From positions 1 to 64,000 of the forward strand of contig NZ_JNZY01000034.1 in assembly GCF_000717655.1 (NCBI RefSeq): DNA of 64,000 nt. The letters are read 5' to 3'. This stretch comes from Streptomyces katrae (GTDB lineage: Bacteria > Actinomycetota > Actinomycetes > Streptomycetales > Streptomycetaceae). Positions 48,217-48,390 of the stretch are shown in pieces (the stretch's first letter is position 1; each line of letters opens with the position of its first letter). A program made the position numbers and the translations under genes. The notes beneath the pieces were generated by a model, which was given only the letters and a program-made list of their open reading frames with translations, searched no databases and was not told where the DNA came from.

Positions 48217-48390
48217 TCACTCCTTGAGGATCGTCTGGCTCAGGCCCAGGGGACGCGGAGCAGCCGATTCCTCCGCCCACGCAGCCACCTGTGGCAGGTC
48301 GAAGAACGTGCGGGTTTCGAGCTCCCCGGCTCGGCGATGGCGCAGCCGATCAGTCGGGTGGGGAGCGGAGAATGCCCGCATGGTGCCAAA
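48217..48390 (-). pseudogene. Relic of a PCP C-terminus from a deleted NRPS module
   Basis: Just upstream of the NRPS at 48212, the minus strand reads HSPLPTRLIGCAIAEPGSS in one frame, then after a shift TRTFFDLPQVAAWAEESAAP, ending SQTILKE and TGA at 48217-48219. This matches the end of the NRPS at 55006 (HSLLATRLISRARAEMG, then FDLPTVAALAAWSQESAAPR). The phosphopantetheine motif, frame and everything before it are lost. Confidence 0.75.

Follow-up and report, generated by a model that had tools for sequence, protein, structure and literature searches.

The published gene table of the aurantimycin (art) cluster of Streptomyces aurantiacus JA 4570 gives the order ArtG-ArtH-ArtI-ArtJ-ArtK, followed by PCP-P450-TE-PKS, and the accompanying description assigns the domains C-A-PCP-E-C-A-PCP to ArtG and C-A-PCP-TE to ArtH, with the A domain of ArtH favouring L-Ala in vitro (PMC5031334). 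A 64,000-nucleotide stretch of Streptomyces katrae DNA (contig NZ_JNZY01000034.1, positions 1 to 64,000; hereafter the window) displays the order ArtG-ArtH-TE-ABC-PCP-P450-TE-PKS expected from that table for an azinothricin/aurantimycin-type hexadepsipeptide cluster, except that a different terminal module (B) takes the place of ArtH, the ArtH-type module (D) is found in a displaced position, and the ABC genes and the PCP are separated by a monooxygenase (compared with the table in PMC5031334). A cluster of this type would yield a cyclic hexadepsipeptide bearing a polyketide chain. Ahead of the displaced D lies the decayed end of an ArtG-type gene. A search of the open-access literature turned up no report of a displaced terminal module or of a PCP relic in this family. 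As a rule, the evolution of NRPSs has to be reconstructed from mosaic trees. In this cluster the mark left by a module move can still be read, both loci lacking the insert and a gene order resembling the ancestral one are available, and events of this kind are seen more than once.

Gene order and features of the window

The genes of interest follow one another on the minus strand as ArtG-like NRPS, B, thioesterase, ABC ATPase and permease, a gap containing the stub, and D. In the ArtG-like NRPS (55006–62769), Pfam finds three C-family, two A, and two PCP domains, which by analogy with ArtG we read as C-A-PCP-E-C-A-PCP; its intact last PCP aligns with the fossil. Directly behind it stands B (51097–54993), a terminal module C-A-PCP-TE with a Thr-like code, followed by a stand-alone ArtI-like thioesterase (50295–51044) and an ArtJ/ArtK-like ABC exporter (48472–50216; ATPase 49230–50216, permease 48472–49233). 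After the permease comes a hairpin (48395–48432, minus strand) that several relatives share in this position; it forms the left border of the insert described below, and a terminator scan demanding a T run did not list it. The stub lies between this hairpin of the ABC operon and D (48212–44394), and D thus sits behind a hairpin; a scan confined to sigma-70 promoters found none ahead of it. D itself is an intact C-A-PCP-TE module of 1272 aa (44394–48212, minus strand). A second hairpin (44334–44377, minus strand), the right border of the insert, precedes a convergent FAD monooxygenase on the plus strand (42811–44325, limits and direction taken from the ORF list), which is the right neighbour of the insertion site.

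The one match to PF04299 (piperazate-synthase-like, KtzT) in the S. katrae genome lies at 83699–84211 on the same contig, about 20 kb past the window; PaiB-like regulators resemble KtzT, as stated in PMC10888640.

The fossil PCP

The segment 48379–48213 is the decayed end of an ArtG-type NRPS gene, running from the GGHS core of the last PCP to the stop; it is now non-coding and frameshifted. A sequence-only reading of the window had proposed a fossil PCP homologous to the end of the 55006–62769 NRPS, which holds, but its limits of 48217–48390 have to be shifted to those given here, and the last 55 or so residues that it counted are present only if both frames are included: the stub holds about 57 original codons over two frames. 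Searched by tblastn with the last 140 aa of the 55006–62769 NRPS, the window matched at 48348–48223 in frame −2 (22/45 identical, E=4e-6), while a second frame (48377–48306) aligned with the GHS..TRLI stretch at E=0.046, weak if taken singly. The alignment of the stub contains a 4-nt and a 9-nt gap that break the frame, so a reading in a single frame is limited to about 33 residues (48324–48223); homology to a coding sequence is thus combined with a lost reading frame, as in a pseudogene.

Chance similarity is excluded by two results. The local alignment score of the stub was 85, whereas 2000 Markov shuffles of the region scored 54 at most, so that the similarity far exceeds that of sequence of the same composition; and an nhmmer profile of intact gene ends matched at E=1.9e-27 across 170 nt, the D start codon included. 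A score of 85 was also reached by 96 of 3000 random pieces of the window, the best 60 of which all lay on true PCPs. Within the genome, two matches to the stub were found at E<=1e-3: the stub itself and the end of the ArtG-like gene with the start of B (71%, E=2.5e-21). The similarity extends from the GGH in the PCP core (48379) as far as the D start codon. The same profile found no more ArtG sequence to the left of the GGHS core (48380–49300), and its sole other match above the inclusion threshold (E=7e-5) lay inside the permease gene. The copied segment may have begun within the PCP core.

Borders of the insert and loci without it

From the permease stop to about 48394, the window matches the region behind the permease in relatives, hairpin included (L003, L005, L007, L010, L051, L054, and others). 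From 48379 on, it matches the junction between the ArtG end and the start of the terminal module in 23 of 26 other loci; the three without a match (L056–L058) gave no D or B terminal module with a TE. A few bases past the D stop, the match passes into the second hairpin and then the convergent monooxygenase. Six non-carrier genomes have both flanks without the insert, spaced by 18 (G629), 51 (G381), 55 (G512), 179 (G484), and 585 bp (G614), and by about 3530 bp in G516, where another gene lies between. In G629 the first hairpin was unmatched, and in G381 the ABC genes were not found in the region between the flank matches. These loci, together with the borders, indicate that the window carries an insert of about 4.0 kb consisting of the stub and D only.

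Carriers and relatives

Behind ArtG, relatives possess D, the Thr-coded B, a longer PlyH-like module (about 1650 aa), or a D-B tandem. The stub has intact counterparts in these clusters: at 21 of 26 junctions an intact ArtG PCP reads into the terminal module. Of the other five junctions, three are fossils (window, G119, and G254), while B is preceded by D in S. albicerus and by an insertion in G121. Among 17 further loci (L069–L085), ArtG stands right before the module in 16 (one at a contig edge), and a stub was found in G604. A D-type module thus lies directly behind ArtG in relatives and beyond the ABC exporter in the window, which agrees with the sequence-only reading that the exporter is now on the other side.

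In a plasmid collection 24 records matched, six of which cover the whole query at 92–93% (NBC_00998, NBC_01001, NBC_00354, NBC_00161, NBC_00069, and NBC_01296). Counting G119 as the same as NBC_01296, the window and these six plasmid records make seven carriers, all with the order ArtG-B-TE-ABC-[stub-D]. The D protein is 95% identical in Streptomyces sp. KS 21 (protein only). The relatives search gave no further carrier, with 3 of 199 genomes matched, S. katrae included. The order and genus samples covered 391 and 392 genomes, at no more than one or two scored candidates apiece; a displaced copy could thus have escaped notice where an in-line copy scored better. The tandem order ArtG-D-B-TE-ABC-monooxygenase is found in G512 (L073) and on a plasmid of Streptomyces sp. 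NBC_00239 (L095).

Several relatives display irregularities of their own. The D of the S. albicerus tandem pair shifts frame near the TE domain (L004, 13333–13365), by sequencing error or decay. In G121 (L055, 9781–11170), about 1.2 kb, 80% alike to L084 10105–11300 and presumably a TnpB gene by its appearance, is inserted between an intact ArtG tail and a Thr-type terminal module; on contig C1 of the same genome the cluster matches twice, near both contig ends (about 68 kb from either) and in opposite orientation, an arrangement as in terminal inverted repeats. In G484 (L070, 8888–9424), the permease was matched only from residue 75, between thioesterase and monooxygenase, and the ABC ATPase was not found in that interval.

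Displaced modules in other genomes

G254 has an intact D of 1273 aa (L045, 11659–15480) about 28 kb before its in-line module. This displaced D possesses a decayed stub of its own (E=1.3e-49, 205 nt) that starts in the DDxFFE part of the PCP core. The in-line module (L066, 10638–12740) is broken, with a frameshift in its A domain and the A domain fused to the end of the TE. A weak phage-integrase domain (6.7e-7) lies about 6 kb before the displaced D (L045, 4950–5621). In G604, a D at the contig edge runs off the contig end behind a stub of 97 nt (E=1.3e-19), and no ArtG was found in the 4 kb before it. All three recognisable stubs (window, G254, and G604) start within or after the PCP core, reflecting either the breakpoint or what survived.

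In the C-domain tree (45 rows), the D of the window and that of G254 fall on different starred branches (98/93 and 95/91) among in-line D rows, which contradicts a single origin of all displaced D; the G604 D stands at the base of the starred clade of the G254 D. A tentative joint reading is that terminal NRPS modules are semi-mobile cassettes, displaced at least twice and perhaps three times (seven carriers, G254, and G604), each taking along a PCP stub of its upstream partner that would now act only as a leader containing the ribosome-binding site; clusters that kept both modules would have two endings or product series, and in G254 the displaced copy would replace the broken in-line module.

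History of the displaced D

The ArtG tree (25 rows) places the tandem clusters of NBC_00239 and then G512 as successive sisters of the carriers (96/98 and 100/99), and the B tree (14 rows) gives the same order (83/90, not starred, and 99/98). As the two trees agree and the nearest outgroups are tandem, an ArtG-D-B ancestor is favoured. We consider it fairly probable, taking the explanation as a whole, that a segment of about 4 kb with the ArtG tail and D was copied or moved within the lineage, that the in-line D was lost, and that the stub decayed. In the ancestor of the carriers, D would have stood directly behind an ArtG-like gene, most likely as ArtG-D-B. The segment, with one end inside ArtG's last PCP and the other a few bases past the D stop codon, would have been copied (or moved) to a site flanked by the hairpins of the ABC operon and of the monooxygenase, and subsequent loss of the in-line D would have left ArtG-B. 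Severed from ArtG, the PCP piece would have decayed by frameshifts, with the last 20 or so bases, which hold the ribosome-binding site of D, being spared; the stub would then be a hitch-hiker of the D move. Copying followed by loss is the route we infer for the displacement, and we prefer its occurrence within the lineage to foreign capture, which is itself a serious rival.

Foreign capture would mean that an ArtG tail with its D, from the ArtG-D cluster of another strain, was inserted into an ArtG-B cluster and that D never stood behind this lineage's own ArtG, a joint claim that we regard as possible but rather unlikely. It draws on the D trees, which keep the displaced D apart from the tandem D of G512 and NBC_00239: the two do not group, standing elsewhere in two trees and in an unresolved comb in the third, so that D may be of foreign origin. 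Forcing them together costs 12.4 lnL units (AU p=0.12, not rejected), and 40.9 lnL units in a larger quick tree (AU p=0.24). The end of the fossil, QT-ILKE, is nearer to the RQM-IVKE tail of the ArtG-B cluster G585 than to the RSM tails of the tandem carriers, a likeness that would count against an origin within the lineage. G254 resembles a case of capture, its stub-bearing D grouping with P0085/P0088 and the near-identical P0079 and its broken in-line module grouping elsewhere (C domain), and the six carriers on plasmid records have a vehicle that could spread fragments. Against capture, the two nearest outgroups by both ArtG and B are tandem ArtG-D-B clusters, and the stub DNA favours tails of own-lineage ArtG over those of S. 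longisporoflavus or Embleya by about 10 lnL, albeit at non-discriminating AU p values of 0.707 and 0.285 (tree of 30 of 42 rows; 12, mostly of the PlyH-like type, were left out).

Much less probable is the history offered by the sequence-only reading, in which an entire NRPS block would have undergone tandem duplication, followed by deletion of the upstream half. A tandem copy of ArtG-D-...-ABC with reciprocal loss would also yield ArtG-B-TE-ABC-stub-D, but the profile search to the left of the GGHS core (48380–49300) found no ArtG sequence, no trace of B, TE, or ABC was seen to the right of D, and the recognisable stubs of G254 and G604 are similarly short (205 and 97 nt vs. 170). The insert holds the stub and D only, and duplication of the block is unsupported because D and B, which are not copies of each other, differ in type and are both found behind ArtG in relatives. 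Their A-domain codes differ, and separate clades in the whole-protein tree (26 of 45 rows) rule out D as a copy of B. In the C-domain tree the B-labelled rows do not all stand together: the S. albicerus B falls with D-type rows by its C domain, and L047/L048, labelled B at first, are of the longer PlyH-like type. We dropped by reasoning a scenario in which D/B recombination cut D out as a circle that later re-inserted, because such a circle would not carry the ArtG tail.

Decay of the stub and the ribosome-binding site

Across the seven carriers the stub contains stops and 1-nt indels, with frames broken differently from one carrier to the next, and coding constraint is absent. The window and G119 share 88.8% identity over the whole gap, and the three 1-nt indels that separate them there fall within the stub. 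In this pair, codon positions 1/2/3 differ at 4.7/3.4/12% in D and at 2.5/2.0/10% in B. The branch of the stub pair measures 0.27 against a median end branch of 0.051 in the tail tree of 30 of 42 rows. A Shine-Dalgarno-like AAGGAG (48220–48225, minus strand) precedes the D start within the last codons of the fossil, and all seven aligned carriers share an identical 20-nt sequence from CCTCAAGGAG to the start codon. The stops and indels beside these invariant last 20 nt indicate that the stub is dead as a protein, and its end was probably retained as the ribosome-binding site of D.

That the stretch is instead a functional leader for the control of D, as a small ORF or a structured RNA, is very improbable: a 58-codon ORF in the window ends 4 nt ahead of D and the Shine-Dalgarno end is unchanged in 7 of 7 carriers, but the ORF stops after 25 codons in two carriers and meets no stop before D in four, a varying frame that rules out a coding leader peptide, and the single Rfam match at E<=1 (E=0.68), which scores 16.2 bits for a miRNA family whose gathering score is 69, is at chance level.

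Predicted roles of D and B

D has the C-A-PCP-TE organisation, the length (about 1270 aa), and the code (DMTQIGWTWK) of an ArtH-type module. This code, read by eye, is that of S. aurantiacus P0013, taken as ArtH on its 1274 aa, the size given for ArtH. B has the code DFWNVGMVHK, which presumably resembles a Thr code. Both were read at what we take to be the specificity-code positions, by eye and with a regular expression that gave no result for several rows. D retains the motifs HHIATDG, GGHSL, and GWSYG and is under purifying selection: omega between the window and G119 is 0.25 for D, 0.26 for ArtG, 0.17 for B, and 0.15 for the permease (one genome pair, own Nei-Gojobori script). For the same pair, dN is about 1.8 times higher in D than in B (0.040 vs. 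0.023), and D may therefore be somewhat less constrained.

Judged by its sequence, D is probably a second terminal module. It would act in trans: ArtG would pass the chain on from its last PCP, D would extend it by Ala or N-hydroxy-Ala and B by Thr, and one assembly line would have two possible endings. D and B may thus work as a pair on the same ArtG PCP, and carriers could end the same chain in two ways, via D or B. Two terminal modules, and hence two product series, are predicted for the seven sequenced carriers. The decayed stub marks the relocation of an alternative last-step gene and so records the natural rebuilding of a pathway, in which a terminal module appears to have been reused after a cut within the PCP core, next to the PCP-C border; the site of this cut bears on where NRPS lines can be split for engineering.

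Comparison with known systems

The aurantimycin cluster is like the window in that the 62769–55006 gene is ArtG-like, D is ArtH-like, and the gene order is common to both. It differs in the single terminal module that its gene table shows directly behind ArtG, and its description gives neither a Thr-coded terminal module nor a PCP stub (PMC5031334). Polyoxypeptin (ply, PMC3943440) and diperamycin (dpn, PMC10888640) are likewise described as products of PKS-NRPS hexadepsipeptide lines ending in a TE module; unlike the window, each is given a single terminal module (PlyH and DpnS4), and PlyH is described with a methyltransferase domain (PMC3943440), which D and B do not possess. The tandem clusters of G512 (L073) and the NBC_00239 plasmid (L095) share the same genes with the window, both D and B included; in contrast to the window, D and B stand side by side behind ArtG, the PCP is intact, and no displaced copy occurs in the stretches seen.
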